The position numbers were made by a program, and so were the translations under genes. From Chitinophagaceae bacterium (GTDB lineage: Bacteria > Bacteroidota > Bacteroidia > Chitinophagales > Chitinophagaceae): a stretch of 64,000 bases of DNA. Shown in pieces: positions 37,975 to 57,016 of this stretch. The DNA is taken from the NCBI GenBank assembly GCA_004173355.1, contig SEAD01000001.1:62001-126000 (forward strand), written 5' to 3'. The notes beneath the pieces are model-generated. The model saw only the letters and a list, made by a program, of their open reading frames with translations. It ran no database searches and was not told the DNA's origin. Every line of letters starts with the position of its first letter. Within the stretch, counting starts at the first letter, position 1.

Positions 37975-38220
37975 ATTTGCAGTTTTTAATCGTTGTCCAG
38001 CCCTTGGGAATGCTGGTGGGTAAAACTAACACTACCCCCTCCAACCGGCTTATCCCGGTGTTCATTTTTTTAGTCCGATCAGACAAAACTGTTGAAAACC
38101 AATACCCGGAATAACGGTTTTGCCTACCTTGGCTCCATAAACGCCGGTGTCAACCAAACTCCATCCGACGAATTGAGAACAGCACAAAACCCTCCGGCCC
38201 GGAACAGGATTGCCGCCATC

Positions 38221-42363: not shown

Positions 42364-42448
42364 TGATCGTTGCATCCGATTGGTTTCGCTCAGCGGAAAA
42401 ACCCGGCCCGATTTGAAAATCCCGGAATTGATTCCGAGATTGCGCCCT

Positions 42449-42985
42449 ATGTCGGAACATGCATTTATGTCTGCAATCATCGGGATTGCCATTTCGGTTA
42501 CATATGCCTATCTCGCGAAACAGCAGTCGAAGGCGCCGGCTGTTGAGGCCAGTGGCCGGACATTGTTGCGGATGTCCAAAGTTTACCTTGTAACCTTTGT
42601 CATATCCGCACTGATTGCGCTGGTTTGCCTGGTTGTGCCCCCATTCCTGGCCGACGTCGATCTCGGGCTGGTGATCTCGGTGCTTGCCATTTTGATCCTG
42701 TTTGGATGGGGTGCCATGTTTTGTTTCCTGATTTACCGGAACCATTTTGTGGCTTTCGATGAGACGGGCTTCCAGGTCAGGAGCCTGTTCGGCAAACAGG
42801 AAGTGGTGGAATGGGCGCAGGTCAGCAGGTGGAAATTCAACAGCTTTTCAGGTAACCTGGTGATCAGGACGGCTGACGGGTTGAAAGTAAAAGTCAGCCA
42901 GCATTTGGTGGGCCTGAATTCTTTCCTCGATACATTCGAATTGAAAACCGGCTTGCCTCCAGTGTTGCCTGGAAGAAAGCGGTGA
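42449..42985 (+). CDS. Membrane protein with PH-like cytosolic domain
   Basis: 178 residues from MSEHAFMSAIIGIAI; a TTG start upstream would add 23 polar residues. Three hydrophobic segments are seen (about 8-24, 48-69 and 78-100), followed by a soluble region FDETGFQVRSLFGKQEVVEWAQVSRWKFN that resembles the PH-like (DUF304-type) domain often linked to membrane helices. It ends in a basic GRKR tail. It follows the HTCS gene by 85 bp on the same strand and meets the convergent astacin gene 11 bp after its stop. No function can be assigned. Confidence 0.62.
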   Translation: MSEHAFMSAIIGIAISVTYAYLAKQQSKAPAVEASGRTLLRMSKVYLVTFVISALIALVCLVVPPFLADVDLGLVISVLAILILFGWGAMFCFLIYRNHFVAFDETGFQVRSLFGKQEVVEWAQVSRWKFNSFSGNLVIRTADGLKVKVSQHLVGLNSFLDTFELKTGLPPVLPGRKR

Positions 42986-42996
42986 TGCTTCTGTTC

Positions 42997-44433
42997 TCAG
43001 CGCTTAATCATCTTTATCCTGGCGTCCGAAATCCTTACAGGCGGAAGGTCTCCCACCCTTTCAAAAATAAAAATATCGCTGATCGCGTTGTCCTGCACAA
43101 CCGGTGCATCATTATCCTGGCTCAGTAGTGCCCAGCTCATATTGCTTTCCAGCCCGCGGATGGTATAACCCTTTCCGGAAGAATGATAAGTGATATAAAA
43201 CTTCAGGTTGGCCTGCTCAACATAATCCCACTGGCAAATACCTGCCCTGAAGGCGAGGCTACGACCGGTCACGTTCAGGAACTTGTCACTGTGCATTGCT
43301 TTCAACAGGAATAAGCCTGAACCAGCCGGACTGACGGCAAACCGTTGGTTGTCCCCCCCGGATTTCAACCTTTGCTGCAGCACTGCCCCGTTCTCGATAC
43401 TGGCTCCCGCTATCTCCAGGTATTTGCCCGTACCCTCGCACCGGATCATATAAATCCCGGCTTCGAGTGGCTTGTCAACAACCCGTTGCGACTTCTGGAT
43501 CATTGTGAGATCCGGACCTGCCGGTTGCACCTTCCGGGCAACGGGAAGGTTATCATCGTAGGGAAGTTCTGCATAATAATCCCGCACTGCCACATCCCTG
43601 TTGAACCAATACGATGCATTGATGCCCGAAATATCCAGGTTGCTCAGCCGCGCAGTCAGCCGCTCAGGCACGCAACTGGAAACTACGTTACCGTTTTTAC
43701 AGCGGATGGTGGGTTTACTGCGATCGACTGCAAAGGCAAAGGCCGGATAGTGCATGATCGACTGGTAATCGTATGCGCCGGCAGTTGAACCGGGCTCCAT
43801 CTGGAAATTATGCCGGCTATCGGCCAGTACATTGTTTGTGTCAATCACCACAAAGTTATCCCTGTCATACCGGCTTTGCTCATGCCAGAATCCCAGTGAA
43901 TGCAAAAGTTCATGGATGATGGTACCCTTGCCGGACTCTCTTGTGATATAAATAATCTGCTCTCCACCCCGCCGGCCAATCGGTGATAATCCGCCGTAGC
44001 CCGTATCCTGGCTATACACAATGCGGATATAGTCCCTCTGGTTGGTATAGGGCACAATCCTGAGATTGGTGAGTTTATTCAGGTCGCTGATGGCATCAAG
44101 GGCATTCTGGTAAATGGATGATCCATAATCGCCTTTTTTGTCGTTTATACTCCTGTCTATTTTCACCGGTACATCTCCTTTCGGCCAGATATAGTTCCCA
44201 TCAGTCAGGTTGCTCTGGTAAATCATAAGGTTCTGGCCGGCATTGCCGACGATGATATCTCCATTCAATATATAGTTAACCCCGATCGTTTTTACGTAAT
44301 AGTCTTCTTCATCTGCAGACATCGGAAGTTTTGCCCGGATTATTTTATACTGCTGTTGTCCATATCCATTGGCAAACACCAGCAACAGCAGGATTAAAAT
44401 GGAAAGCCTGGTTTTAATGAAATTGATCGCCAT
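42997..44433 (-). CDS. Secreted astacin (M12A) metalloprotease with C-terminal RICIN domain
   Basis: 478 residues with a signal peptide (about 1-25). A short pro-segment (about 28-85) precedes the catalytic domain. Zinc motif H174-ELL-H178-SLGFW-H184-E185 and Met-turn SIM227-H-Y229 are both complete, and Tyr229 is the fifth ligand seen in astacins. From about 300 to 465 comes a ricin-type beta-trefoil lectin module (GTGKYLEIAGASIENGAVLQQ, DNQRFAVSPAG, SDKFLNVTG). It would be a protease targeted by its lectin part. Last gene of a five-gene operon (gap 18 bp) that also encodes two stand-alone RICIN proteins. Confidence 0.9.
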   Translation of the reverse strand: MAINFIKTRLSILILLLLVFANGYGQQQYKIIRAKLPMSADEEDYYVKTIGVNYILNGDIIVGNAGQNLMIYQSNLTDGNYIWPKGDVPVKIDRSINDKKGDYGSSIYQNALDAISDLNKLTNLRIVPYTNQRDYIRIVYSQDTGYGGLSPIGRRGGEQIIYITRESGKGTIIHELLHSLGFWHEQSRYDRDNFVVIDTNNVLADSRHNFQMEPGSTAGAYDYQSIMHYPAFAFAVDRSKPTIRCKNGNVVSSCVPERLTARLSNLDISGINASYWFNRDVAVRDYYAELPYDDNLPVARKVQPAGPDLTMIQKSQRVVDKPLEAGIYMIRCEGTGKYLEIAGASIENGAVLQQRLKSGGDNQRFAVSPAGSGLFLLKAMHSDKFLNVTGRSLAFRAGICQWDYVEQANLKFYITYHSSGKGYTIRGLESNMSWALLSQDNDAPVVQDNAISDIFIFERVGDLPPVRISDARIKMIKR

Positions 44434-44451
44434 AAAAAGTAGTTTAAATGA

Positions 44452-45054
44452 TTATTGCTGGTTTTTCCTGATCACTGCGGGCTTGACAGGCAGGTGCGAC
44501 TTTTCTTTTAGCAATACCGGGGCAGGTGGATCAATGGGTTCAAATACATAATTATACGGGCAATCAACTTGTCCGTCCTGGTAGATGGGTTCGATAAGAC
44601 GACAATCCGCGCCTTCGGCTGTACTGCTTACCTGCAGCGGCTTTCCTGAGCCGTTTTTATAGGAAATCTTCCATCCCAGCCCACAGTTCTCCAGTTTGGT
44701 GAGAAACCATTTCCCGAAATAGGCCGAGAGTGTATTCTGCACGATCAGGTCGCCTTCCCGGTTGTCACCTTTGTCTGCACAGATCGTTTTCCCCGAATGC
44801 CCGGCGAAAAAAGAAAATGTACCATCATCATTCTTTTTAACCTGGAATTTCTGACTTGGCTTATCGGTGTAATTCACCTGCACGATCCTTGCCCCATTGT
44901 CACTTGCTGCATTCTCCACCGCCAGGCATTGCCCTGTCTGCACAACGTGGATTTTTACCCAGCTCCCATCTTTCGGGAACATCGAAATGGAAGTTTGCCC
45001 ATGAGTTTCCTGTAATGCCAGCACCAAAATCAATCCTGTAATAAACGCTTTCAT
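44452..45054 (-). CDS. Secreted stand-alone RICIN-type beta-trefoil protein
   Basis: 200 residues with a signal peptide (1-19, ending at ETHGQ). One trefoil-like module at about 30-165: VQTGQCLAVENAASDNGARIVQV, KPSQKFQVKKNDDGTFSFFAGHSGKTICAD, and GKWFLTKLENCGLGWKISY. A Pro/Lys-rich tail follows (PPAPVLLKEKSHLPVKP). The Q-x-F/W triads typical of ricin repeats are visible but degenerate. Likely binds sugar or another extracellular ligand. It lies between the astacin gene and another RICIN gene, gaps 18 and 27 bp. Confidence 0.75.
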   Translation of the reverse strand: MKAFITGLILVLALQETHGQTSISMFPKDGSWVKIHVVQTGQCLAVENAASDNGARIVQVNYTDKPSQKFQVKKNDDGTFSFFAGHSGKTICADKGDNREGDLIVQNTLSAYFGKWFLTKLENCGLGWKISYKNGSGKPLQVSSTAEGADCRLIEPIYQDGQVDCPYNYVFEPIDPPAPVLLKEKSHLPVKPAVIRKNQQ

Positions 45055-45081
45055 GATATGTGTTTTTAGGAATCCAACAAT

Positions 45082-45594
45082 TTATTCGACTTCATTCTTT
45101 TTAAAATCCAGTAACATCGGACGGAAATTAGGGTCACCCTGCAGGTACAGGTAAGCACCTTTCCGCGGCGTGACCAGTGAGTTCCAGTACTGGATCACAA
45201 CCGGGAACTTTTCGGTAAAGGAATTCATCACAAACCCTTTCCCACCGGGATGCGGAAGGATATACCATTTCTGGTTATCCTGGTTGAGCCAGTCCCACTG
45301 GATAAGCTTTGCCCCTGCCTTCGCATCACCCTCCGTACTCAGGTACTTGCCACTATGTTTTGCCATGATGGAGTACACATCATTTCCAAGGTGAGTGATA
45401 ATAAACAGGAAATGGCTGCTGTACTCTTTTTCCCACTGGACAGCACGGGCACCATTCACGTGTGCCGCGGCGGCAATGGCGATATACTGCCCTGTCTGGC
45501 CGATCTTCACCATGTATTCACCATCTGTAAGTGATTGTGAAAAGCCGCTGTAGACTAAACAAAGCAACAGGCAGGCTATCAGTATTTTTTTCAT
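45082..45594 (-). CDS. Secreted stand-alone RICIN-type protein
   Basis: 170 residues with a signal peptide (1-19, GFSQ). The trefoil pattern is clear: GEYMVKIGQTGQYIAIAAAAHVNGARAVQWE, VYSIMAKHSGKYLSTEGDAKAGAKLIQWDW, and NQDNQKWYILPHPGGKGFVMNS. Compared with the neighbour at 44452 it has better-kept QW motifs and a shorter tail. No enzymatic motif. It probably acts as a lectin partner of the astacin protease. Gaps to neighbours are 27 and 23 bp. Confidence 0.78.
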   Translation of the reverse strand: MKKILIACLLLCLVYSGFSQSLTDGEYMVKIGQTGQYIAIAAAAHVNGARAVQWEKEYSSHFLFIITHLGNDVYSIMAKHSGKYLSTEGDAKAGAKLIQWDWLNQDNQKWYILPHPGGKGFVMNSFTEKFPVVIQYWNSLVTPRKGAYLYLQGDPNFRPMLLDFKKNEVE

Positions 45595-45617
45595 GTTTTT
45601 TTATTAAATGGAAGTAA

Positions 45618-46034
45618 TCAGATTCGCTGGTAAGTGATAGTACCTTGTCCTTCAGTGCCCACCCACACCATCTTATTTCCCGTGACTGTGAGGGTGTAGG
45701 TTTGTCCCACGGAAAAATCCTTCTGGGTGGAGATGGTAATCCTGTTGCCGGTCAGCTTCCACATGGTTTTGCTGTACATTTTTGTCTGGATCTTGGAATA
45801 ACTTTCATCACAGCCGCTGGCCGCTGCATCCAGCCGGTAACTGCCATCAGCATTCACCACCCAAACGATTTTTGCCGCACAGGGTCGCTGTTTCAGCAGA
45901 GCAACATGGGAATCGAAGGTCTGCCCCTCGTAACTGGAAACATGGGAGATTTTTTTCCATCGCCCAACCGGGGACTGGGCATAGGCGATAACCGCCGTTA
46001 GTGAAAATCCGATAATGAACAGAATTGATTTCAT
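45618..46034 (-). CDS. Small secreted lipocalin-like protein
   Basis: 138 residues from MKSILFIIGFSLTAVIAYAQ, whose signal peptide decides the start over a longer frame. The mature part begins SPVGRWKKISHVSSYEGQTFD and ends MWVGTEGQGTITYQRI, the G-x-W start and strand-rich body seen in small lipocalin-like (DUF4923/DUF5004-type) Bacteroidota proteins. Two Cys (in RPCAAKI and ASGCDES) may pair. It sits second in the five-gene operon (gaps 37 and 23 bp). Role unknown; ligand binding or inhibition of the protease are both possible. Confidence 0.68.
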   Translation of the reverse strand: MKSILFIIGFSLTAVIAYAQSPVGRWKKISHVSSYEGQTFDSHVALLKQRPCAAKIVWVVNADGSYRLDAAASGCDESYSKIQTKMYSKTMWKLTGNRITISTQKDFSVGQTYTLTVTGNKMVWVGTEGQGTITYQRI

Positions 46035-46071
46035 CTGGTAATATTTAATGTTTAAAAAAAATCTGGTCAAC

Positions 46072-47031
46072 TTATCTCCCCCAGCCTTCCGGCCAGTCCA
46101 TCAAGCTGTCCATACTTTTCACTGCCGACGTGGTAATATTTCCGTAGCAGGCACGACCATACACCGGAGGACAGGTCATCGCCATCGTAAAAAACTGCCA
46201 GTCATCAAAATCAAACAGGAAAATGACAGATGTACTGCCTTCATACACAAGGGCGGCGTCTATCTTCCCTTTCATGCTGTTGGAAAATGCCCCAGGGTAC
46301 AACAGGGAGTCGGAAGGAATTGCCTTGCCCAACGGGCTTACAACACTGGTAAAATATCCTTCGTCGAAGTAGAGATAGAGTCTCGCCGGTGTAGCCACCC
46401 TCGGAAAGTTGCCGTAGAAAAAATAGTCGGGCAGCGAATCGTTAACATCGACGGGGGTTGTACCAGACCTGTCCCTCCCCGGAACCCATAGGTCAAGGCA
46501 GGCCTGGGGATTTTTCCCCGCCATCGGTCCTGCGTAAAAGGGATTGTGCATTTCGTTGATCGGGAGTATCACACTGGAGACTGGAGTGAACTTCTGCACC
46601 GAATCATAATGGAAGGTATATGGCCTTGCCTGGTAAGTACTGGTGGTGCGCATTTTCAGGAAAGCATTCACAAAGAAATCATGACTCAGTCCTTTCCCAT
46701 GCACAACCTCCCTTACATCAGCCGGCCAGTTTGTGGCGAAAGCGCTGATGGGTTTTGGTCCTTCTGCCAGCCGGAACCTGTATTCGCCGCCCTCCTCCAC
46801 AATATCTGCAATAAGAAAACGCTTGTCTGCATTCGACGCATGATTGATATCGAGGAACACAAACCGGTTCTTCGGGATACTGCCATTTGCAGCAGGCATC
46901 CCTTCAGGAAGTATGCCCATAAACCGGGAAGCAGACGGTGGATTGCCGGCGTTGCCCTGGTCTTTTTTGCAGGATGAAAATACAGCGGCTGATAAACAAG
47001 CGGCTAACACAAACGAGTGATAATGTTTCAT
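46072..47031 (-). CDS. Lipoprotein of unknown function, first gene of the astacin/RICIN operon
   Basis: 319 residues with a lipobox at AAVFSSCKKDQGN (Cys about 21). The mature protein has many aromatic residues. The C-terminal segment GKIDAALVYEGSTSVIFLFDFDDWQFF resembles the I-D-A-A...F-F pattern of hemopexin-type repeats, though I see only one or two such repeats. No enzyme motif is evident. It would be anchored in the outer membrane and may hold or receive the exported partners. The start lies 20 bp after a TAGGTTTG promoter motif on the minus strand. Confidence 0.68.
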   Translation of the reverse strand: MKHYHSFVLAACLSAAVFSSCKKDQGNAGNPPSASRFMGILPEGMPAANGSIPKNRFVFLDINHASNADKRFLIADIVEEGGEYRFRLAEGPKPISAFATNWPADVREVVHGKGLSHDFFVNAFLKMRTTSTYQARPYTFHYDSVQKFTPVSSVILPINEMHNPFYAGPMAGKNPQACLDLWVPGRDRSGTTPVDVNDSLPDYFFYGNFPRVATPARLYLYFDEGYFTSVVSPLGKAIPSDSLLYPGAFSNSMKGKIDAALVYEGSTSVIFLFDFDDWQFFTMAMTCPPVYGRACYGNITTSAVKSMDSLMDWPEGWGR

Positions 47032-47050
47032 GGTAAATGGTTTGAAAACT

Positions 47051-47058
47051 CAAACCTA
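47051..47058 (-). promoter_or_regulatory. Promoter -7 element of the astacin/RICIN operon
   Basis: Minus-strand TAGGTTTG fits TAnnTTTG. It ends 20 bp before the ATG at 47031. No clean TTTG is found 19 bp further up; the region there holds the direct repeats instead, as expected for an activator-dependent promoter. Confidence 0.55.
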
Positions 47059-47077
47059 TGGCTGTTCCCCACCATAA

Positions 47078-47127
47078 ACCAGTTTACTCGCCCATCAACC
47101 GGTTTACTCGCCAAACGACCAATTTGG
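47078..47127. repeat. 20-bp tandem direct repeats in a divergent control region
   Basis: Copy 1 at 47078-47097 (ACCAGTTTACTCGCCCATCA) and copy 2 at 47098-47117 (ACCGGTTTACTCGCCAAACG) are immediately adjacent and agree at 15 of 20 positions. A third, worn copy starts at 47118 (ACCAATTTGG). The core is ACC(A/G)GTTTACTCGCC. A 20-bp step is about two helix turns, which fits LytTR-type regulators that bind two direct repeats on one face of DNA. The adjacent gene encodes such a regulator. Confidence 0.75.
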
Positions 47128-47128
47128 C

Positions 47129-47136
47129 TATATTTG
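47129..47136 (+). promoter_or_regulatory. Promoter -7 element of the LytTR/histidine kinase genes
   Basis: TATATTTG matches TAnnTTTG and lies 24 bp before the ATG at 47161. The direct repeats end just upstream and overlap the place of the -33 element, suggesting autoregulation. Confidence 0.55.
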
Positions 47137-47160
47137 GCATACAACCCAATCAACAAAAGA

Positions 47161-47865
47161 ATGCCGGCAACCTGCACCTGTATCATTGTGGACGACGATG
47201 ACATCGACCGGCTGACCACCCTTTCTTTTGTGCAGCAACATCCCCTGTTCCGGGTAACAGGACAATATAATTCTGCTGAATCTGCGTTGCAGGACCTCAA
47301 TCATCACCTGCCAGATGTCGCATTTCTTGATATCGATTTGCCGGGTATATCCGGGCTGGAATTAAGAAGGCAACTGGATAAGATCCCTGCCTGTATTTTT
47401 ATTACATCATTTTCAGATTACGCGGTAGAGAGTTTTGAACTGGAGGCACTGGACTTTATCGTAAAACCCATCAGGGCTGAACGGTTCACTAAAACGGTCG
47501 AACGCATCACCCGCTATTTTGAAGTAAAAGAAAAGGCGGATTCCTTCGGGCACAATATTTCCCCGGGTTCAATTTTTATAAAGGAAGGAGTCGAGCAGGT
47601 TAAACTGTCACTGAGTGAAATCCTGTACCTCGAAGCGTTTGGCGACTTTACACAGGTAGTAACTACGGGCAGGAAATACTGTGTGTTGAGCAACCTGGGA
47701 GCGCTGATCAAACAACCTGGCTTTTCAACATTTGTCCGGATCCACAAAAGTTATGCAGTGGAACCCGCACGAATTGAAAAGACAAGATCGTTGGAAGTCA
47801 TTGTAAATAATATCAGCCTGCCTGTTGGCCGGGCTTACAGGGACACCCTGCGCCAACTAAAGTAA
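47161..47865 (+). CDS. LytTR-family response regulator
   Basis: 234 residues from MPATCTCIIVDDDD. Receiver domain at about 5-120: acidic pocket DDDD at 11-14, phospho-acceptor Asp57 in VAFLDIDLPGISG, Thr/Ser in FITSFSDYAVESFELEALDFIVKPI with the conserved Lys. LytTR DNA-binding domain at about 140-234 (IFIKEGVEQVKLSLSEILYLEAFGDF, FVRIHKSYAV, LPVGRAYRDTLRQL). LytTR proteins bind paired direct repeats about two helix turns apart, and such repeats lie just upstream. Its stop is 3 bp before the histidine kinase, the evident partner. Confidence 0.93.
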   Translation: MPATCTCIIVDDDDIDRLTTLSFVQQHPLFRVTGQYNSAESALQDLNHHLPDVAFLDIDLPGISGLELRRQLDKIPACIFITSFSDYAVESFELEALDFIVKPIRAERFTKTVERITRYFEVKEKADSFGHNISPGSIFIKEGVEQVKLSLSEILYLEAFGDFTQVVTTGRKYCVLSNLGALIKQPGFSTFVRIHKSYAVEPARIEKTRSLEVIVNNISLPVGRAYRDTLRQLK

Positions 47866-47868
47866 TTT

Positions 47869-49866
47869 ATGTTACGTTCATTGCTTATCCTGTTACTGTT
47901 CATCCCGGTCATCAGTCCGGCCCAGCAAAAAGGGCAGGCGCTGTCGGATTCGCTGGAGCGGCTGGTAGTGGTGGAAAAGAGCGATACTGCAAAGGCGAGG
48001 CTTTATAACCGGATCTTCAACGAACTTTTCGGCATGGATCATGACCGTGCGTTGATCACTGCGAGGATGGGCCTGGCGCATACCCGGTCCATGAAATGGT
48101 TAAAAGGCATCGGGACTTTCCAGGATAATATTGGCCGGTTTTACAGTGAGTCGGGCAACTACGATTCGGCGGTATTTTATTACAACGCAGCAATTCAATC
48201 CCAACAGGAAGCCGGCAACCGCAAAAGCATTGCCCTTACGTACAATAATCTAGGGGTGGCTGCACAAAATATCAAAAGCGATTTTACCACCGCGGCTGAT
48301 TATTATTTCAAGGCCCTCCGGATCTGGGAGGAAGAGAAAGACAGCACACAACTGGCCAATACCCTTACTAACCTGGGTTCGATTTACCTGCTGCAGCAGG
48401 ATTACCAGAAATCACTTGACTTCAACAGGCGGGCTTTAGTACTGCGTGAAAAAACCGGTAATATGCAGGAGCTGGCTGTGTCGCTCCAGGGCATCGGGAA
48501 AACCTACCTGTTACTGAAAGACACGGCCAGGGCAATGGCTAACTTTCGGAAGGGATTGGCGGTGTCGGAAGGTAATGGAGACCTGCAGGGTATGGCATCC
48601 GCCTGGTCAAATATTTCACTGGGTTACAGCAAGGATTTGCGGGCTGTTGCGGCAGCACGGGTCAAAGCGAGACAATTATGGGAAGACTCCAACCCACTGC
48701 ATCCCGAGGCTATCGCCAACCTGGGCAATCTCGGGATCATCTATTACGATATTGCCACAAAGGATAGCCTGCGACTGGTACTCCGGGATTCACTGATTCC
48801 TGCTGACAGGGACCTGCTGCTCAAAAAAGCCGCTGGTTACCTCAGTGCAGCCATCGAGCTATCCCGTCAGACCGGAAACATCGACAACTATTCCTTTTTC
48901 ACAGGGGCGCTGGCAGAAGTACAGGAACAGCAGGCTGATTTCAAAAATGCCTATTACAATTACCGGTTCTACCGGGATGCGCAGGATTCGCTTTTTTCCC
49001 AGGAAAATAAAAACAGGATTGCGTCCTCGGAAAGCCGTCGCATGTTGGAATTGAACCAGCTCACACTGCGTGACCAGCGCAGGATGATGTGGGTTCTTGC
49101 AGCCGGGATATTTATGGTCGCAGTGATCGGGGTGCTGTTGTACCGGCAGGCCAAAGCAAGGAAAAAATCAAATACTGAATTGGTCAAGCTCAACAGCGAG
49201 CTGGATGAAGCCAACCAGGCGAAGGCGCGGTTTTTTGCGCTGATGAGTCACGACCTCCGGAGCCCTGTATCGAGGCTGATCAATTACCTTCACCTGCAGA
49301 AAAATAACCCCGGATTATTGTCAACCGAGTTGAAGGAAACGCAGGACAGAAAAATAACAGAGGGAGCCGAGTCTCTTCTTGACAACCTGGAAAATATGCT
49401 GAGCTGGAGCAAAAGCCAGATGGAAAAGTTCCGGCCGCAGCGCGCAGAAGTAGATGTCAGCCTGCTCTTTGATAAACTCCGGAATTCCTTTGGCACTTAC
49501 GAAAATATCCGCTTTACGTTCACCAGCAAGGTTGAAGCAATTGTGCTGACAGATTTCAACTATCTATTTTCTATCCTGCACAACCTGTTGCAGAATGCGG
49601 CAGAAGCATTGGGATCAACAGACTGGGGTGAAGTGGACTGCTTGGCGGAATTTTCCGGCAACGAAATACGGTTCACCGTGAAAGACAATGGCCCGGGTTT
49701 TCCAGTACCGATGCTTCACGATGACAAGTCCGAAGGGTTTGTTATCGGCAACAAAAAAGGACTCGGGATGCTGATGGTGCGGGATATGGTGACGGCAATC
49801 GACGGGCGACTGGAAATAGCGAATACAGGATCGGGCGCAGTGGCGTGTTTGTATCTCAGAACCTGA
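47869..49866 (+). CDS. TPR-containing sensor histidine kinase
   Basis: 665 residues with a signal peptide (1-19, ISPAQQ). Periplasmic TPR repeats at about 60-390 (GTFQDNIGRFYSESGNYDSAVFYYNAAI, ALTYNNLGVAAQ, LANTLTNLGSIYLLQQDYQKSLDFNRRAL). Membrane helix at about 405-425, coiled coil, HisKA with His461 in FFALMSHDLRSPVSR, and HATPase (NLLQNAAEAL, VKDNGPGF, GLGMLMVRDMV). Kinases of this shape typically partner LytTR regulators in Bacteroidota. Translation is likely coupled to the regulator. The TPR domain would sense a protein or envelope signal rather than a sugar. Confidence 0.93.
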   Translation: MLRSLLILLLFIPVISPAQQKGQALSDSLERLVVVEKSDTAKARLYNRIFNELFGMDHDRALITARMGLAHTRSMKWLKGIGTFQDNIGRFYSESGNYDSAVFYYNAAIQSQQEAGNRKSIALTYNNLGVAAQNIKSDFTTAADYYFKALRIWEEEKDSTQLANTLTNLGSIYLLQQDYQKSLDFNRRALVLREKTGNMQELAVSLQGIGKTYLLLKDTARAMANFRKGLAVSEGNGDLQGMASAWSNISLGYSKDLRAVAAARVKARQLWEDSNPLHPEAIANLGNLGIIYYDIATKDSLRLVLRDSLIPADRDLLLKKAAGYLSAAIELSRQTGNIDNYSFFTGALAEVQEQQADFKNAYYNYRFYRDAQDSLFSQENKNRIASSESRRMLELNQLTLRDQRRMMWVLAAGIFMVAVIGVLLYRQAKARKKSNTELVKLNSELDEANQAKARFFALMSHDLRSPVSRLINYLHLQKNNPGLLSTELKETQDRKITEGAESLLDNLENMLSWSKSQMEKFRPQRAEVDVSLLFDKLRNSFGTYENIRFTFTSKVEAIVLTDFNYLFSILHNLLQNAAEALGSTDWGEVDCLAEFSGNEIRFTVKDNGPGFPVPMLHDDKSEGFVIGNKKGLGMLMVRDMVTAIDGRLEIANTGSGAVACLYLRT

Positions 49867-49910
49867 GTAAATCCTTCCTTGAGTGAGGGAATAGGAATCT
49901 TTTAATTTTA

Positions 49911-49941
49911 TTGGTCCGGGACACCGAACAAGATAACTTTG
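49911..49941 (+). promoter_or_regulatory. Promoter of the YqaE/Pmp3-type gene
   Basis: TTG at 49911-49913, a 20-bp spacer, and TAACTTTG at 49934-49941. It lies 38 bp before the ATG at 49980. The same region is recognisable but damaged in the relic at 16043-16187. Confidence 0.7.
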
Positions 49942-49979
49942 CTCCGGAATCTGCTATAAAATTTACCAAAAGCAAACGC

Positions 49980-50399
49980 ATGAGAAAGACAATTTTACTA
50001 TTTGCCTCTGTTCTGATGATCCTGTCCGTTTCGGTGATCAGCCCCGCGATCGCCGCTTCCTCCTACTCTCTTCCTGCCAATTCTGCCCGAGTGCCGGACT
50101 CCGCCCTGGTAGCGGCTGCCAAAGCTGAGTTCATGGCGCTTTCCAAAAAAGAGAAGAAGGCGAAAGTAAAAGAGGTAAAAAAAGAACTGAAGAAATTCAA
50201 AAATGCGAAAAAATCCGGCGCCGAGCCCAGCGAGTCAACCCTGTTGCTGGTTATCCTCGCGATCCTCCTGCCACCACTGGCGGTTTATCTGTACGAGGGT
50301 GAAATCAACACCCGTTTCTGGATCAGCCTGCTGCTGACCCTGCTGTTCTGGTTACCAGGGATCATTTATGCCCTTATATTGATCCTGGGAGAAATGTAA
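49980..50399 (+). CDS. YqaE/Pmp3 (UPF0057) family membrane protein with exported N-terminal extension
   Basis: 139 residues from MRKTILLFASVLMILSV; the promoter at 49911-49941 rules out the longer frame. Signal peptide at about 1-24, then a Ser/Ala segment and a lysine-rich helix (LSKKEKKAKVKEVKKELKK) at about 56-80. The C-terminal 50 residues are the two-helix Pmp3/YqaE domain: ILAILLPPLAVYLYEGEINTRFWISLLLTLLFWLPGIIYALILI. The classic family is about 55 residues, so the extension is notable, though I recall similar forms in other Bacteroidota. Role linked to membrane stress or ion balance in the family. A terminator follows. Confidence 0.82.
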   Translation: MRKTILLFASVLMILSVSVISPAIAASSYSLPANSARVPDSALVAAAKAEFMALSKKEKKAKVKEVKKELKKFKNAKKSGAEPSESTLLLVILAILLPPLAVYLYEGEINTRFWISLLLTLLFWLPGIIYALILILGEM

Positions 50400-50428
50400 T
50401 GCCGGAATAAACAATGAACAATATAAAA

Positions 50429-50468
50429 CTCTCCTGCAGCCTTTGGGTTGCGGGAGATTTTTTTTGTG
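50429..50468 (+). terminator. Rho-independent terminator after the YqaE/Pmp3-type gene
   Basis: TCTCCTGCA pairs with TGCGGGAGA around a short loop (GCCTTTGGGT), followed by eight T. One wobble or mismatch in the stem. It lies 30 bp after the stop. Confidence 0.85.
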
Positions 50469-50587
50469 CAATACCAATCAGCCTGCCTTCTCTATTGCCG
50501 TAGATGAAGCGATGTATCCCCTGGATGCCGTGCCAGGGACCTTCGCCTTGTTGGACGCTGGCTGTTTAATGTTTATATTGATGATCT

Positions 50588-51052
50588 ATGGATAAACTGA
50601 ATTTTAAAATAGTCGATGCAAAACCCTTCCGGTCAGCATTCATATCCTCGGTTGTGATGAATGTTGTGCTGGCACTAGGTGCCTTTTTGATCATCAGGGG
50701 AATTGTACCAATTACCCCGCCGTTTATAATCAGCAACTCAATTTCGCAGGTGGCGATGTATGTGGTCATTATCGGATCTTTTTTGTACATCAATTCAATC
50801 AAATCGAAGACGCATGATATTGCCAAAATCACCGACTTTAACGAAAAAATGCGCCGGTATGAGCGACTTTCGAAGCAGCGATACTTTGCGTACCTCTATT
50901 CAGCATTTGTATCAGCGATCCTGATGCTGGTCAGCTTCCGGATGGTATTTTTTTATTTTACCCTGGTTGATATCCTGCTCGTAATACCATTCTACCCATC
51001 ATTGCGGCTTTTCCGGACCGAGTTGAAGGATGAAGAGATTGTTTTCTCCTGA
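50588..51052 (+). CDS. Membrane protein of unknown function
   Basis: 154 residues. Four hydrophobic stretches: about 18-38 (FISSVVMNVVLALGAFLIIRG), 44-66, 97-116 and 119-138. The loop between helices two and three is charged (KSKTHDIAKITDFNEKMRRYERLSKQR) and is probably cytosolic. No family recognised. It stands alone between the YqaE-type gene and the accessory region. Confidence 0.62.
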   Translation: MDKLNFKIVDAKPFRSAFISSVVMNVVLALGAFLIIRGIVPITPPFIISNSISQVAMYVVIIGSFLYINSIKSKTHDIAKITDFNEKMRRYERLSKQRYFAYLYSAFVSAILMLVSFRMVFFYFTLVDILLVIPFYPSLRLFRTELKDEEIVFS

Positions 51053-51166
51053 TTGGATTAGTCTTTTGAGACAGACAACACATCAAGTCCTGGAAAAATG
51101 CCGGAAGATGAAAAAACGCAGAGGGCCAGTGAGTAACACTCATTGATTTGGGGAATAATAGCTAGC

Positions 51167-51820
51167 TTAAGATTCCTCCAACGCAGGTGTTGGAAGTCCT
51201 ATTTTTTTGTTCAGATATTGAAGAAATTTTATCAAAGCGAAAACCTCAGGATGGCCTTTAAAGAATTCAGGAGCGTAAACATCTAAAAAGCCAGACCTTT
51301 CATAGTTTTTAACATGGAGCTGGATAGTTGTTCCATCGGTAGGGCCCCCATGGCTGCTAATGACTAATTTTTTTGTTATTGTATCAATTCCATATTCACG
51401 GGCGACTTCCGACAAACTCTGCCATCCTGAAGCAGGCTTTTTGATTGATATATTATAGGGTACCAGCCTCATAGAATCCTGAGTTTTGTTCTCCTCAGTT
51501 CTCAGTTCGGCGGCGAAAGCATCCCAAACCCCGTTTATCTTAAAAATTGACAATACTGAAACTGACGCCTCATAGTTTTGATATATTCTCAGCTCGTAAT
51601 CACATTTTGCTTGTGGAAATAATTCAAGTAACAACTCATTGTTAACAATAGTGTCGCCGTTGCCTATAAAAAACTTGCATTTGAAAGGCGTTATAGTATC
51701 TCTATCAACAATTTGCCCATTGATGGATGTATAAATATTTCTCGTAGTATGTGGCTTACAACTCCACAAAATAATTACTAAACAAAATGCACAACAATAG
51801 CGGATGATTTGAAGCTTCAT
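51167..51820 (-). CDS. Lipoprotein of unknown function
   Basis: 217 residues from MKLQIIRYCCAFCLVIILWSCKPH, whose lipobox (IILWSC) sets the start over a longer frame. The mature protein reads as a mixed alpha/beta domain with segments such as INGQIVDRDTITPFKCKFFIGNGD and VAREYGIDTITKKLVISSHGG. I recognise no family. The gene is visibly richer in A and T than the genes to its left and opens the accessory region, so recent transfer is possible. Confidence 0.65.
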   Translation of the reverse strand: MKLQIIRYCCAFCLVIILWSCKPHTTRNIYTSINGQIVDRDTITPFKCKFFIGNGDTIVNNELLLELFPQAKCDYELRIYQNYEASVSVLSIFKINGVWDAFAAELRTEENKTQDSMRLVPYNISIKKPASGWQSLSEVAREYGIDTITKKLVISSHGGPTDGTTIQLHVKNYERSGFLDVYAPEFFKGHPEVFALIKFLQYLNKKIGLPTPALEES

Positions 51821-52043
51821 AACCTTATCTAAATACTTTATAAGTCCATTCGCGATCGCCAACAAATTCGGATTTTATGTTTGCCTCTGAATAACTTTCT
51901 GAGAATAGCCTGACTTTATTCGCTGGATTCTGAATTGCAAGTCTCAACAAGCATGAAATGGGTCTGGGGAACCACCGAATGTAACGCGGGAAGTGTAGAC
52001 ATCAACCCGACCAAAAAAATCCGGGATATACTAAAGAATGTTG

Positions 52044-52172
52044 TCAGGGTTTTTCGTTCGGTTCTCCACGCGCATATGAGCCAAAGATGGCCATCCCCGA
52101 AATCGGACATTTGCGCTCGAGCTCAGGCTTGTATTTACGAAGAACTGCAATCAAGTTATCGATAGTGTACGT
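52044..52172 (-). pseudogene. Relic of an MNT-type nucleotidyltransferase gene
   Basis: On the minus strand the frame reads IDNLIAVLRKYKPELERK, then CPISGMAIFGSYARGEPNEKP, then a stop at 52044. LRKYKPEL and the GSYARGE motif are the hallmark of small nucleotidyltransferases of the MNT antitoxin type. The expected next motif (D-x-D) is broken by a frame change (D-N-I-L in the next frame), the downstream part is unreadable, and the likely start codon is ACG at 52172 in place of ATG. No HEPN partner is seen. The whole 51821-52402 gap holds only this relic and the tRNA-end copy. Confidence 0.6.
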
Positions 52173-52250
52173 AGAAGTCTTAGAACTGACAGTTTAAATT
52201 TACGAAACGCCTTTCGTGGAATCATCCTGATCCCGAAAGGGCAAAAAAAT

Positions 52251-52270
52251 AGCCCTCATTTCTGAAGGCT
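52251..52270 (-). terminator. Hairpin after the copied tRNA 3' end
   Basis: AGCC-C-TCA and TGA-A-GGCT pair around loop TTTC, with A-run 52243-52249 giving a T-run on the minus strand. It resembles the terminator after the intact tRNA-Lys (same loop sequence) and may be its displaced original. Confidence 0.6.
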
Positions 52271-52271
52271 C

Positions 52272-52293
52272 TTTTCCGTGATCCCGCTGGGAC
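52272..52293. repeat. 22-bp direct repeat, copy of the tRNA-Lys 3' end (attachment-site-like)
   Basis: Identical over 22 bases to 56772-56793, where it covers the last 15 nucleotides of tRNA-Lys plus seven flanking bases. The two copies are exactly 4500 bp apart. This is the pattern left by site-specific integration at a tRNA 3' end. Confidence 0.65.
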
Positions 52294-52402
52294 CCAATTA
52301 TTTACCTCACACTCAGCACTCTACTAATAAATGTCGATCAGTTTGTCGATCTACTTTGCAATGAACTAATAAAAACTCGTTTTGTTAACACGAGATGTCC
52401 CT

Positions 52403-55060
52403 TTACAAAATGATGCGGGCAACAAAAATAAGTTGGCGGGGGCGGAGTGAAAAGCGGTTTTGGATAGTGGTGTACCCATCTGTATAAACTGAAGCGAAGG
52501 TTCGCGAATTCAGCAGGTTATTACAGCGGACTTCATAACCAACTCTATGCTTTTTTTGCGAAGTGAACCGGTAGAGCAGATCCATGAATCGTTGGTCTCG
52601 AAAGCCTTTCTGGTCATACTTGTACAATGTAAATACACCGGTAAGACTATGCTTTTTAACCGGGAATACACTCGCTTTGAATTGGTGCTCTTGCCGTAAA
52701 AAAGAGTTGATCAGGCTGTGGTCTTCCATTTTTGCCGAAATCCAAGTCATACGCATTGAAACCTCCGGGATGAAATAAGGGGACGAATTGTTGGTACCGA
52801 AGAACCCCACTGTGTATTCGTTGTTGGTGAGTGACAGATTTGAACCGTTCAGTACACGTTCGTACTTATTTACAGCAGCCGATGCGTTTAATCGGATCGT
52901 TGTCTGAATGCCAGAAAAAAGGCGGCCGGCACTGAGAGCCCCTTTTTTTTGCAACTGTTCATTCGGGCTGATTTCCGCCTGGATGGTACTCGTTCCATCT
53001 GGTTCGAAAATGGTACTGTACAGTACATTGAGCCGGTTCTGCATTATCGACACCGTCCCATTCATGAGATACCCTTTCTGCGGTATTTTGTATTCAAAGC
53101 CTGCTGTCGCGATCAATACCCGTGAGGTTGGCAGTATTCCGGGATATCGCATCAGGGTCCTGTAATTGTTCAGGATGTAGCCCGGGTAACTATAGCCTGG
53201 ATCACCGGATATATTGTACTGGCGGTTACCCGAAATCAAGGTCTTAAAATTCTTTGCCAATTTCCATTCCATGTACAAGTTGGGTTCGAATGCCAAGGTT
53301 CTCGCAGAGGCAGAATTCGCAGTAAGCAGCTGGACATTTAGTGACTGCAGCGGAAGCGACAACGAGAAAAATCCCCTATTGAATTCATAATTTAAATCCA
53401 GGGCAGAATAAACCGAAGTCCGTCGGATGTGCAGGTCATTCCGGAAAAGTTCAGCAGCCGGTTGAGTCTCCCCTCCGCTCAGCCGGTGCAGGCTGCTTTC
53501 CAGGGTCTTTCGGCTGATCAATATGCCAGCCCTCAGTTTGAACACTATCCCATTTACCCGCTTCGTTGCATCTGCGTAATGGTCTGCATTCCAGCCAGCA
53601 GTTTTTACAACCTGTTTACCTTCAGGGTAAGCGGCACTGCTGTCAACCAGGTTGGGAAATGGCCCAGGAGTTACGGAAAGGTTTTCGGGCAGTAACTGGT
53701 AATTGACCAGGCTATTGATGGTAATGAGCTGTTTGCCCACGGCAGTAGTTAATGTAAACCGATTATCGAGCGTCCGCGATTCATGGAGATCGCGTTGATG
53801 AATCTGGTCTCGCGAGTTTCCAATTCGGCCAATATCCCTGTAAAAATCGGCCGCCATCGAGAGGTTATTGCGAAAGAAAATCCGTTTGACATTTTTCTCC
53901 ACTACAAAATGGCCCAGCATTTTATGCATGTTGTAGCTATTCCGCTGAAACTCCCTAATTTCTATGGGCTGCTCGGTCAACGGGGAAATAATTGTTACAG
54001 TCGATGACTCAAGCTGTTGATGATCGTTGACCACCGCCAGGTTTACTTTCACTACTATATCATTCTCCAGCTTTTTCAGCAGATTGGAACTCCATTGGTT
54101 CAGGTTGTTTCTCAGCCATCGCGTTTTCTCGAAAGGGGGTAAGGCGCCCTGCATTATGGAGGTAATTCCGTTCAGCTTGAATCCCGTGTTGTTCCGGAAA
54201 GAAAGCCCGAGGGGTTTGGCATTCAGCAATCCAGCGCCGTCTTCCCCGGTATTGTTACTCAAAAAGGAATGCAGCATCTGAAAGCGCTGGTTAAAAAGCA
54301 TCACCGTAAGTGAAGCATGCCTCAGCGCTGGCGAAAGTCCGGCCCCGACTTCGAGGTTCCCTGCTACAGTCAGCTTTTTCAGCTTCAGGTTAATCGTTGT
54401 TTCATTGGACGGAACCAAACTATCCAGTACCCTGACCCGTTGATCATTTTCGACAACCTGGATTTTAGTAACGGCATCAGCCGGAAGATTTGTACTCAAT
54501 ATTCCGTACTGACCTTCCATAAGATTCAGACCATCGACCGTCAATTGCTGGATCGGTTTACCCTGGTATTGAATCTCTCCACTGGCCGCCACACTGATCC
54601 CGGGTAATTTTTTGAGCACATCTCCAATTGACCGGTCCTGCTCAGTCTGAAAACTGCCCACATTATAACTGAGGGTATCGCCACGCTGATTCACGGCAGC
54701 ATTAGACTGCACCTTAACCTCTTTAAGTTCGTTCGGACTGGGTACCAAAGTAATCGGAACATCCTGTGATCCATTATAAAGTACGATCGTTTTGGACGCA
54801 TACCCAATTCTGGATATTTTCATAAACAGCTTTGTCTCGTCCGGAAGATTTATTTTCAAGGAGTATTCACCTTTTCCATTCGAGATCGAAAAAGCAGCGA
54901 TGGGGCCGCTGACATGAGAACCAGTAACGGTCAGGCTCACTCCCGCTATCGGACGTTGCAGTGAATCTTGAACAACTCCATTTACGACGATCTGGCCTTT
55001 CAACCCGAAACTGATCAGACAAGCGGTTAATGTAAATAAGGTATGGATTAGAGCTTTCAT
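52403..55060 (-). CDS. TonB-dependent-receptor-like outer-membrane protein
   Basis: 885 residues from MKALIHTLFTLTACLISFGLKGQ (signal 1-23); a longer frame exists but overlaps the upstream gene. Carboxypeptidase regulatory-like domain at about 24-110 (VNGVVQDSLQRPIAGVSLTVTGS), then a plug-like domain (LKEVKVQSNAAVNQRGDTLSYNVGSF, DVLKKLPGISVAASGEIQYQGKPIQQLTVDGLNL), then a long barrel ending in RPRQLIFVARIIL. These proteins (often found beside GLPGLI genes) resemble SusC but lack a SusD partner. It follows the GLPGLI gene by one base. Transport or assembly role unknown. Confidence 0.85.
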   Translation of the reverse strand: MKALIHTLFTLTACLISFGLKGQIVVNGVVQDSLQRPIAGVSLTVTGSHVSGPIAAFSISNGKGEYSLKINLPDETKLFMKISRIGYASKTIVLYNGSQDVPITLVPSPNELKEVKVQSNAAVNQRGDTLSYNVGSFQTEQDRSIGDVLKKLPGISVAASGEIQYQGKPIQQLTVDGLNLMEGQYGILSTNLPADAVTKIQVVENDQRVRVLDSLVPSNETTINLKLKKLTVAGNLEVGAGLSPALRHASLTVMLFNQRFQMLHSFLSNNTGEDGAGLLNAKPLGLSFRNNTGFKLNGITSIMQGALPPFEKTRWLRNNLNQWSSNLLKKLENDIVVKVNLAVVNDHQQLESSTVTIISPLTEQPIEIREFQRNSYNMHKMLGHFVVEKNVKRIFFRNNLSMAADFYRDIGRIGNSRDQIHQRDLHESRTLDNRFTLTTAVGKQLITINSLVNYQLLPENLSVTPGPFPNLVDSSAAYPEGKQVVKTAGWNADHYADATKRVNGIVFKLRAGILISRKTLESSLHRLSGGETQPAAELFRNDLHIRRTSVYSALDLNYEFNRGFFSLSLPLQSLNVQLLTANSASARTLAFEPNLYMEWKLAKNFKTLISGNRQYNISGDPGYSYPGYILNNYRTLMRYPGILPTSRVLIATAGFEYKIPQKGYLMNGTVSIMQNRLNVLYSTIFEPDGTSTIQAEISPNEQLQKKGALSAGRLFSGIQTTIRLNASAAVNKYERVLNGSNLSLTNNEYTVGFFGTNNSSPYFIPEVSMRMTWISAKMEDHSLINSFLRQEHQFKASVFPVKKHSLTGVFTLYKYDQKGFRDQRFMDLLYRFTSQKKHRVGYEVRCNNLLNSRTFASVYTDGYTTIQNRFSLRPRQLIFVARIIL

Positions 55061-55061
55061 A

Positions 55062-55928
55062 CTACTTTGCGGTGACAAATCGCTCCAGCCAGTTGTTTTC
55101 AGATTTAGCTCGCGCACGATAACGCTCCTGAGTTTCTTCAATCATATTATTGAAGACTAACCCATATTGCTGTTCCATCTCAAACCCATTCTGGTAGCTG
55201 CTGCGCAAAAGGGTCATAAACTTATTTTTGGTCGTGTTTTCCACTTCAAACCCATTGATGATAGTATCTGGAAAGAAGTACTCTTTGTTTTCAAAACTGA
55301 CAAGCGTAAAGTTCCAGTAATTCTGGGTGTCACTGATTTGTATGATGAGGCCTGGAAGCCCACAAAACTTGTAAGGTCCGTCACTGATTGGGATTTCCGT
55401 ACTGAACCAGGAAATCCAGGTTCGATTACCGAAATGGCAGGAAGCCTTTTGGCATTTATAGCCTGCGATTGTCGATGTATCGTTAAGAATCAACCATTTA
55501 AATACTGTTTTCGGCTCACTGTACTTAAAGATCGGGCTTTGCGCAACCGCTATACGGTCAAACGTTGCAATTTCATCGGCGTATTTGACGACTCGGTAGT
55601 CAAAGTAATGGTTTTGTTCAGGTTTGGATCGAAATTGCCAATTATTCTGCTTCCTCAACGCACGGTAATGACGAATGGTATCCGCGTTGAGGTTTCCTAA
55701 TGCTCCGAAAATGCTGTACTCACCACCAGCTAACAGCGCCATAGTAGCATCCTCAAATTTGCTGTTTGTACTGTCCCGCTGGTAGTGAAGGTTATAAATC
55801 GCAACATGTCGGTAGGTCGGGCGTGGAACCAAGCCATCGCCCTCCCCTGGAATTGGTACAGCGTTGCGGTTGAACGCCACTGAAACAAGAAGGAGCAAAC
55901 TGAAAATCACAGAATGAGCATACGTCAT
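55062..55928 (-). CDS. GLPGLI family protein
   Basis: 288 residues from MTYAHSVIFSLLLLVSVAF (signal 1-20). The signature GPYKFCGLPGLIIQISD gives the family its name. Other family parts: YNLHYQRDSTNSKFEDATMALLAG, WLILNDTSTIAGYKCQKA and TWISWFSTEIPISDG. The function of the family is unknown; it is exported and often encoded next to a TonB-receptor-like gene, as here (gap 1 bp to the next gene). Both would be made together. Confidence 0.92.
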   Translation of the reverse strand: MTYAHSVIFSLLLLVSVAFNRNAVPIPGEGDGLVPRPTYRHVAIYNLHYQRDSTNSKFEDATMALLAGGEYSIFGALGNLNADTIRHYRALRKQNNWQFRSKPEQNHYFDYRVVKYADEIATFDRIAVAQSPIFKYSEPKTVFKWLILNDTSTIAGYKCQKASCHFGNRTWISWFSTEIPISDGPYKFCGLPGLIIQISDTQNYWNFTLVSFENKEYFFPDTIINGFEVENTTKNKFMTLLRSSYQNGFEMEQQYGLVFNNMIEETQERYRARAKSENNWLERFVTAK

Positions 55929-56150
55929 AATAGATGAATTAGAAAGTGTAAGTATGGTAAATCTGGTTACTAAATATAACAATAAACAGGTGGTTGTGTA
56001 AGCGTACCGTAAACTCGGCCGTTTGAAATTTGGCGAAAGGGCTTAATGACCCTGTACCCTTTATCGGACATAGCTAAGACGGAAATTTCGGAACTTTCGA
56101 AGAGTTGAGGAATTCGCAAGGGTGGACAAAAAGCAGTCGATGACGAAACT

Positions 56151-56432
56151 TTAGAGGTAACCGCTAAAATAGAAAAAAACTGCAGCGTACAACGACAACA
56201 ACTCAATGATTGTAAAGCCAACGTTTATCAGATTCAATGCACCAAACTTGTACAAGAGCCAAATATTGAGGAGCAAGTGGCCGCAGCCAAAGACAATATA
56301 CAGCCGTGTCGACGCTTCAGCGTAACTACTATTGGCACCATAGCCCAACAAAAACGCGGTAATAAAATAAACCGTTATTAAGACTATTGCGATTACAATA
56401 TTCAGAAGGACAACTTTATATAATGGCTTCAT
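56151..56432 (-). CDS. Small membrane protein, orphan
   Basis: 93 residues, MKPLYKVVLLNIVIAIVL start. Three hydrophobic segments: about 8-29, 44-63 and 68-90. A/T-rich codons. No family known to me. It sits between the GLPGLI gene and tRNA-Lys inside the 4500-bp segment and may be part of a mobile module. Confidence 0.5.
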   Translation of the reverse strand: MKPLYKVVLLNIVIAIVLITVYFITAFLLGYGANSSYAEASTRLYIVFGCGHLLLNIWLLYKFGALNLINVGFTIIELLSLYAAVFFYFSGYL

Positions 56433-56745
56433 AATTACTTTACCGTGACTGTTATTCCGTAATCTTTTTTCATCCTATTAAAAAAATCATCTCTTTATTG
56501 CTGCCGTTTGTAACCAATTGCTAAAATGCTTGGGTAATTGCAGTGATGTCGTTAACAAATGAGGACATGCATGCGACCCAACGCACCAAGGGAATTCTCA
56601 TTACTTTGAAATGCTCCTTTCAAACTCTTCATATCGTTTCCTGAAAGCTTGTATCTTGCATGGTCCTGAGAGTACGCGTTTAGACCTCCGGGTTTGATGA
56701 TCGAATTTGACTCGTAATTGCTGCAAAGTGCTGCAAAAACAAAAA
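56433..56745. other. Gene-free, AT-rich gap
   Basis: No convincing coding frame, repeat or promoter is visible here on either strand; the only structures nearby are the terminator and tRNA to its right. Confidence 0.6.
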
Positions 56746-56746
56746 A

Positions 56747-56770
56747 GGGAACACTATTTCTAGTATTCCC
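56747..56770 (-). terminator. Terminator after tRNA-Lys
   Basis: GGGAACACTA (56747-56756) and TAGTATTCCC (56761-56770) pair with one mismatch around loop TTTC. The A-run at 56741-56746 gives six T on the minus strand. Confidence 0.8.
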
Positions 56771-56771
56771 T

Positions 56772-56793
56772 TTTTCCGTGATCCCGCTGGGAC
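56772..56793. repeat. 22-bp direct repeat overlapping the tRNA-Lys 3' end
   Basis: Partner of 52272-52293. It covers the discriminator base, the 3' acceptor strand and half of the T-stem of the tRNA. Confidence 0.65.
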
Positions 56794-56851
56794 TCGAACC
56801 CAGGACCCCATCATTAAAAGTGATGTGCTCTACCAACTGAGCTACAAGATC
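56779..56851 (-). tRNA. tRNA-Lys (anticodon UUU)
   Basis: 73 nt. Acceptor stem GATCTTG/CGGGATC (seven pairs, two G-U), D-arm GCTC-AGTTGGTA-GAGC, anticodon stem CATCA/TGATG around loop CTTTTAA (anticodon TTT), T-arm CTGGG-TTCGAGT-CCCAG, discriminator A. CCA is not encoded. Confidence 0.95.
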
Positions 56852-56985
56852 AACCTGTTGTTCAGTACTGTTGTTCTGAACGGGGTGCAAAAATAAGGCG
56901 GCGACTGTTTCGCGCCAAAAAATTCTTGGATATTTCTCCATTTTTTTTTCGGGGTCGGGCGCGTCCTTATCCATTCAGGCTGAAA

Positions 56986-57016
56986 TTGTTTGGTGCCCCT
57001 TTTTAAAGTAGGTTTG
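56986..57016 (+). promoter_or_regulatory. Promoter of the SDR gene at 57035
   Basis: TAGGTTTG at 57009-57016 fits TAnnTTTG; a TTG at 56986-56988 lies 20 bp upstream. The start codon is 19 bp downstream of the -7 element, so the leader would be short. Confidence 0.55.

Follow-up and report, generated by a model that had tools for sequence, protein, structure and literature searches.

We analysed a stretch of 64,000 nucleotides from a Chitinophagaceae bacterium (assembly GCA_004173355.1, contig SEAD01000001.1, positions 62,001 to 126,000), called here the window, in which a segment of about 4.5 kb is bounded by an intact tRNA-Lys gene and by a copy of the end of that gene. The tRNA gene, with anticodon TTT, lies on the minus strand at 56778-56851 (ARAGORN; Rfam tRNA 71.1 bits) and is the sole tRNA in the window. 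Two identical 22-bp direct repeats, at 52272-52293 and 56772-56793, are separated by 4500 bp. Read on the minus strand, the repeat consists of the last 15 nt of tRNA-Lys(TTT) through the discriminator base (16 by the ARAGORN coordinates) and then of 6-7 nt past the gene, CGGAAAA. The right copy is the end of the intact gene with these nucleotides and resembles an attL site; the left copy, GTCCCAGCGGGATCACGGAAAA on the minus strand, is a displaced tRNA-Lys 3' end resembling an attR site and falls outside every frame of at least 80 aa and outside any full-length tRNA gene. An earlier note, made from the letters of the window alone, had described the same exact repeat and its 15 bp of tRNA, in agreement with the coordinates and with ARAGORN, and its worry that the repeat might be common in the genome can be dismissed, since only two exact copies exist in the whole 5.36-Mb assembly. 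With up to 3 mismatches the assembly search returned the two copies and one match with 3 mismatches on another contig, and 100 shuffles of the window gave no match to the repeat when 3 mismatches were allowed.

Three genes lie between the copies, all on the minus strand: one for an outer-membrane protein, so named from its family context, with a carboxypeptidase-regulatory-like domain (52403-55060), one for a GLPGLI family protein, tightly paired with it (55062-55928), and a frame of 93 aa that matched no family (56151-56432). A terminator-like hairpin stands at each end, just outside the left copy (52251-52270, minus strand) and beside the tRNA (56741-56776, minus strand). A search of frames of at least 30 codons with a seven-sequence tyrosine recombinase profile, with E values up to 1, found no integrase or remnant of one in the whole window or in the 18 kb to its left, and the earlier note had likewise reported that the integrase was missing.

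Displaced tRNA-Lys ends and their repeat pairs

The tRNA-Lys 16-mer GTCCCAGCGGGATCAC was present in 118 of 244 genomes of the family and, besides the genome analysed here, occurred in more than one copy in 29, several of which have same-strand pairs kilobases apart. From 16 genomes among these 29 we retrieved regions (genomes are designated G, contigs C and loci L). The survey of displaced copies does not extend to G047, G087, G102, G124, G133, G165, G178, G194, G206, G214, G229 and G238, nor to one additional copy each in G007, G071 and G114. Most 16-mer copies in the fetched genomes were whole tRNA genes. Eight were displaced 3' ends, found in 4 of the 16 genomes (G083 four, G230 two, G100 and G237 one each), a number that under-counts copies broken later or mutated, because the search needs an exact 16-mer (a 14-mer on the fetched loci in one pass). 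Their identity with the tRNA starts between GAGTCCC and TCCC, and that of the left copy in the window at GTCCC.

A tyrosine integrase or a remnant lies at most 320 nt from seven of the eight displaced copies. The eighth carries a 7-nt repeat pair whose motif is also that of a tRNA-Lys end in its own genome with an integrase 205 nt away. The remnant (L268) was recognized by the profile alone (E 1.1e-4), with no Pfam match. Integrases were also located 3' of intact tRNA-Lys genes, at 62, 201 and 205 nt in G003, G140 and G237, respectively. By Pfam, all nine full-length integrases tested carry Phage_integrase and Phage_int_SAM_5, and eight also Arm-DNA-bind_5. Displaced copies with integrases on both sides occur in G083 (L270, L291, L292). 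The 3' end of tRNA-Lys(TTT) appears to be a repeatedly used landing site in Chitinophagaceae; among the matches listed for the open-access literature, no paper dealt with tRNA-Lys islands in this family.

Some further observations concern these loci. G083 (L269-L271, L290-L292) contains two island arrays, each formed by a tRNA-Lys and a pair of displaced copies with integrases beside them; the distance from the tRNA reaches 92 kb in one array and 107 kb in the other. In G010 (L047, 2227-3099) five tRNA-Lys-like genes follow one another, two of them with anticodons that ARAGORN cannot assign. The genome analysed here has four Phage_integrase matches, two of which, of 305 and 312 aa, resemble Xer proteins in length; a tyrosine integrase stands beside tRNA-Pro (C250:18425-18856) and an integrase fragment beside tRNA-Ser (C277:2953-3147), the latter 63-64% identical over 76 aa to integrases adjoining tRNA-Lys copies in G083 and G100.

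Elements at tRNA-Lys in this family carry, shortly inside their ends, a motif of 7-13 nt repeated twice with a period of 10-12 nt, and we regard these pairs as candidate arm-type integrase sites. At the left end of the segment the pair GATCGACA-AACT-GATCGACA lies 38 nt inside the left copy (52332-52351, minus strand) and would be such a site. The displaced copy of the G100 element (L285, L295) has AATCGACA-AAAA-AATCGACA, with the same period of 12 and at the same 38 nt. The shared form, ATCGACA-N5-ATCGACA, was found exactly only at these two places (three other hits being repeat records of the window DNA) among 295 records (2.89 Mb), which were mostly chosen for their tRNA-Lys region and do not amount to a genome-wide test of rarity, and in none of 20 letter shuffles. 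One mismatch in the GATCGACA-type pair added a single match, in L177, not adjoining a tRNA-Lys copy. Concerning gene content, the inner side of the G100 copy has, within 25 kb, genes for an Eco57I-type methylase, a TraG-type coupling protein, a relaxase, ParB and Wadjet-like proteins (JetD, SbcC-like, DUF3375), whereas none of the coupling-protein, relaxase, ParB, restriction-modification or Wadjet-like genes is present in the segment of the window. The far end of the G100 element was not found.

At the other end, the pair TTTGCAGCA-C-TTTGCAGCA lies 40 nt from the tRNA (56719-56737, minus strand) and is a candidate arm-type site of a second element. In the sister species TTACAGCA occurs twice at the same place, at 38 nt, with the same G/A change in both repeats, which suggests a joint constraint on them. 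The proximal and distal motifs of the window differ from each other. The same motif is found at both ends of four intervals running from a tRNA to its first displaced copy; two of these are in G083, while G230 and G237 have one each. G083 also has two copy-to-copy intervals, which have unlike motifs and an integrase at each end, and we infer that they are composites.

We also compared the distance of the pairs from the ends. It is 38-40 nt at the two ends of the segment and 38-50 nt in L269, L284 and L285, and 98-135 nt at integrase ends having a pair of at least 8; some integrase ends, namely L270, L285 and L292 (3' side) and the L268 remnant, are without such a pair. Both ends of the segment look like non-integrase ends. 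Runs of at least 8 were seen at 18 distinct flanks of intact tRNA-Lys genes out of 141, and in the contig analysed here in 57 windows out of 2098. By a narrower rule (a pair of at least 8) the multi-copy genomes that were fetched have a pair at 9 of their 31 intact tRNA-Lys copies, and ten other relatives at 0 of 14.

Origin of the segment

We consider it likely that the segment represents the remains of tyrosine-integrase islands at the 3' end of tRNA-Lys(TTT), two elements in tandem from which the middle has been deleted. With high probability the left copy is a genuine scar of attachment, a tRNA-Lys 3' end displaced by the integrase of a G100-type element, because integrase-bearing islands occur at this tRNA in the family and because the GATCGACA pair at 38 nt has its match at the displaced copy in G100. 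This part of the earlier note, which had recognized an integrated element, is upheld; the single element inserted in the lineage of this organism, as the note had pictured it, is not. The two ends probably derive from two tandem islands rather than from one element of 4.5 kb, because their motifs differ, whereas those of the four comparable tRNA-to-first-copy intervals agree. The scar is well supported, and the tandem arrangement with its deletion is what we infer.

The comparison within the genus is based on one other genome, that of the sister species (G001, which appears to be PMG_180). The tRNA-Lys is near a short-chain dehydrogenase/reductase gene in many relatives, and the sequence 3' of it varies from genus to genus. 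In the sister species about 56 nt past the tRNA are homologous to the tRNA-proximal flank of the window, including the terminator (80% identity over 54 bp, E 3.5e-4), and then different genes follow; apart from the tRNA and its vicinity, the matches to positions 37500-57000 of the window do not exceed about 240 bp. Since the terminator and the repeat pair next to the tRNA are present in the sister too, a single insertion in the lineage analysed here is unsupported. We considered the sister as an empty site and rejected it, as the likeness of its terminator and repeats is to the tRNA-proximal side and not to the hairpin at 52251. In the same species a histidine kinase-response regulator pair stands beside tRNA-Lys, and its best match on the contig of the window (C252:52.3-55.1 kb, compared with C107 and C737 of the sister) is 63.7 kb away. 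This distance could have indicated an insertion of 63 kb, a possibility that was rejected: C737 is colinear with C252:49.9-68.8 kb except for that gene pair, and the junction has no copy of the tRNA end.

The proposed course of events would be the following. Each incoming element would have restored tRNA-Lys and pushed the old 3' end outward. An element X, tRNA-proximal and with the TTTGCAGCA repeats, would have inserted into tRNA-Lys earlier than the divergence from PMG_180, and an element Y, distal and with the GATCGACA repeats, a relative of the conjugative or mobilizable element of G100, would have stood in tandem with it. A deletion of the middle would then have removed the integrase end of X, the middle attachment site and the integrase end of Y, leaving the non-integrase end of X, the GLPGLI and outer-membrane cargo and the non-integrase end of Y, and the sister species would have retained the end of X only. 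There is a precedent for composites in the G083 copies with integrases on both sides, whose copy-to-copy intervals have unlike repeats. The segment is probably fixed and no longer mobile, because its arm sites are unlike and it has no integrase.

That the two hairpins exist and that both are closed by a GAAA loop, as the earlier note had seen, is correct, but GAAA is a common stable loop and the match between loops is therefore not evidence of kinship between the hairpins. A scan of the window for terminators gave 5 sites against 5.7 expected from shuffles, with no excess. Compared with tRNA-Lys flanks of relatives (122 flanks), the hairpin at 52251 reached a score of 28, the best of 100 letter shuffles being 25, but ranked only second of 24 terminator-like sites of the contig. 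It may be the original host terminator of tRNA-Lys, displaced outward, although its likeness to the terminators of relatives is weak.

A single non-autonomous element of 4.5 kb with intact attachment sites, movable in trans by a related integrase, was the view of the earlier note. Both core copies are indeed intact and identical over 22 of 22 bp, elements without integrase are known as a class (cis-mobilizable elements, CIMEs; described in PMC5704250), and other tyrosine integrases are encoded in the genome. However, its ends have unlike motifs where those of the comparable intervals are alike; both ends are of the non-integrase type, with pairs at 38-40 nt instead of 98-135 nt, even if some integrase ends have no pair; the tRNA-proximal flank predates the split from PMG_180; and the integrases of the genome are placed by tRNA-Pro and, as a fragment, tRNA-Ser, the other two being Xer-like by length. 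We regard this explanation as improbable.

Just as improbable, in our opinion, is that the distal end alone was mobile, the tRNA-proximal terminator and pair being host sequence common to the sister species and the segment the product of a rearrangement. In its favour, the proximal pair, with its period of 10, is only moderately rare, a search with the exact 16-mer gave no displaced copy in the sister, and the genes beside the sister's tRNA are unrelated. On the other hand, pairs at 39-68 nt are found on the tRNA-Lys flanks of G083, G230, G100, G052 and G117, against none of the copies in the ten other relatives, and both proximal repeats have changed alike between the two species. The left copy might finally be the 3' remnant of a second tRNA-Lys produced by tandem duplication, its 5' part lost and genes inserted later, and for this speak the tandem tRNA-Lys genes at 9 of 80 loci and in G010, the hairpin of its own after the left copy and the score that the DNA upstream of that copy reaches when aligned, with gaps, to the 5' part of the tRNA (top 1-4% of controls), but the break falls within the same few bases as in the eight integrase-linked displaced copies (the search pattern excluding later breaks) and a worn tRNA does not predict the G100-matching pair upstream of it, so that we give this origin hardly any credit.

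Several results weigh against the origin from two tandem islands and must be set beside the evidence for it. No intact X or Y element was found, and the window and the 18 kb to its left hold no integrase remnant. The rule of one motif per element derives from four intervals in three genomes only, with G237 extending across two contigs, and the copy-to-copy intervals of G083, whose composite nature is our own reading, do not share a motif between their ends. The 295 records are a non-random sample. Runs of at least 9 were present in 22 background windows out of 2098 and in 3 shuffles out of 2000, so the proximal pair, with its period of 10, is not rare enough alone, and with 9 of 31 intact tRNA-Lys copies having a pair, it is not a universal mark. 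The sister assembly is in 900 contigs, which makes the loss of its distal end uncheckable. The empty site that the earlier note had proposed to look for, a tRNA-Lys with the 52251 hairpin immediately after it, was not seen among the 122 tRNA-Lys flanks. Finally, G+C is 0.41 at 50400-52271 and 0.447 inside the segment, and the left copy forms no clean border.

Cargo and neighbouring DNA

The frame of the outer-membrane gene extends for 912 codons to 55141 with a TTG start, but the ATG at 55060 is the likelier start; similarly, the GLPGLI frame reaches 55982 with a TTG start. The GLPGLI assignment of the earlier note was confirmed (TIGR01200, E 1.2e-42; PF09697), its TonB-receptor-like gene yielded only a sub-threshold match to CarboxypepD_reg, and its orphan membrane gene is the 93-aa frame without family match. 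Altogether the segment proteins matched CarboxypepD_reg and PNGase_F-II_N (both below the cut-off), Porph_ging and GLPGLI, and nothing else; PHROGs gave no match, and neither did PDB by single-sequence search.

Homologues of the outer-membrane protein at E<=1e-30 were found in at least 55 of 394 family genomes, our own counted and some partial, two candidates having been scored per genome. A frame with the GLPGLI motif lies upstream of the homologue at 28 of the 29 loci of relatives that were examined. Within the genus the outer-membrane gene had no match above 33% identity besides itself, and a scan of genome contigs with this protein found no relative. The GLPGLI and outer-membrane cargo is an ordinary Chitinophagaceae operon, and its function, judged from family names alone, is likely to be in the envelope. 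The earlier note had held that the same genes and spacing in distant relatives would speak against an island; the pair is in fact widespread in the family, and this counts against the pair as a mobile unit, not against the scar. We also considered the pair as a mobile cassette bounded by tRNAs, because its best homologue (G284) stands by two tRNA-Val genes, but tRNA genes were present in just 2 of 12 enlarged loci and the idea was rejected; in the same 12 loci no displaced copies of those tRNAs were found, the search being limited to tRNAs within the loci.

Just outside the left copy is a remnant of an MNT-type nucleotidyltransferase (52047-52193, minus strand), with the GSYARGE motif and a frame that breaks after GSYARGEPNEKP (NTP_transf_2 E 0.0017, below the cut-off; PADLOC PDC-S09 E 5.5e-6). 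It presumably belongs to an antitoxin-like family. Further acquired DNA may lie left of the left copy, where the low G+C reaches about 50.4 kb. Much farther off, at 10558-11685, there is a gene of 375 aa that is about 77-80% identical to the neighbour of tRNA-Lys in G008 (L050) and Siphonobacter (L160, L161), here 45 kb away from it.

Concerning phages and plasmids, the matches listed (20 of 129 phage and 20 of 51 plasmid records) all fall on the tRNA part of the query. Among viral contigs the tRNA end was found on one, and none had a repeat pair together with a displaced copy. The contig IMGVR_UViG_3300006853_000053 (L258) contains at 13158-13175 a tRNA-Lys 3' half reaching into the anticodon arm, which is not covered by any tRNA call and may be an attachment site of the anticodon-loop class.

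Comparison with known islands

The segment shares with the islands of the Islander collection, as described in PMC4383910, an intact tRNA with a 3'-side fragment in the same orientation, a length above 2 kb and a break in the T-loop/T-stem (class J). Tested on the Islander criteria, it has tRNA and fragment on the proper side and in the proper orientation, at a spacing within 2-200 kb, and the fragment is outside any other tRNA or conserved domain. However, Islander demands an integrase inside the candidate according to the same text, and the segment is without one. Relaxase or conjugation genes, which an integrative conjugative or mobilizable element should have, are missing from the family matches of the segment proteins.

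A CIME, as defined in PMC5704250, is an element that has lost its integration and transfer genes and kept attL and attR, and an origin by tandem accretion and decay has been described. The segment is alike in the missing integration and transfer genes and in having attachment cores at both ends. Each end also has one repeat pair, but the motifs of the two pairs are unlike, so that the ends may not function as a pair. In the same phylum, a 10-kb island of Riemerella anatipestifer likewise lies downstream of a tRNA with an exact flanking repeat, but there, according to PMC6764341, the repeat has 53 bp, the tRNA is tRNA-Arg, the integrase is active and excision has been shown.

It is conceivable, although we hold it for rather doubtful, that integrase-free chimeras of this type, generated by deletion across the middle attachment site of tandems whose integrase ends face each other, regularly serve to fix cargo at tRNA-Lys in Chitinophagaceae, with the end pairs labelling the elements. 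Most likely the segment is of a known kind, a decayed CIME-like tRNA island, and an ordinary genomic scar whose ends bear a telling signature. Islands without integrase escape the finders that are based on integrases; here the repeat pairs inside the ends give strong grounds for regarding the left copy as an attachment scar, connect it with a conjugative or mobilizable element of a different genus and hint at an origin from two elements.

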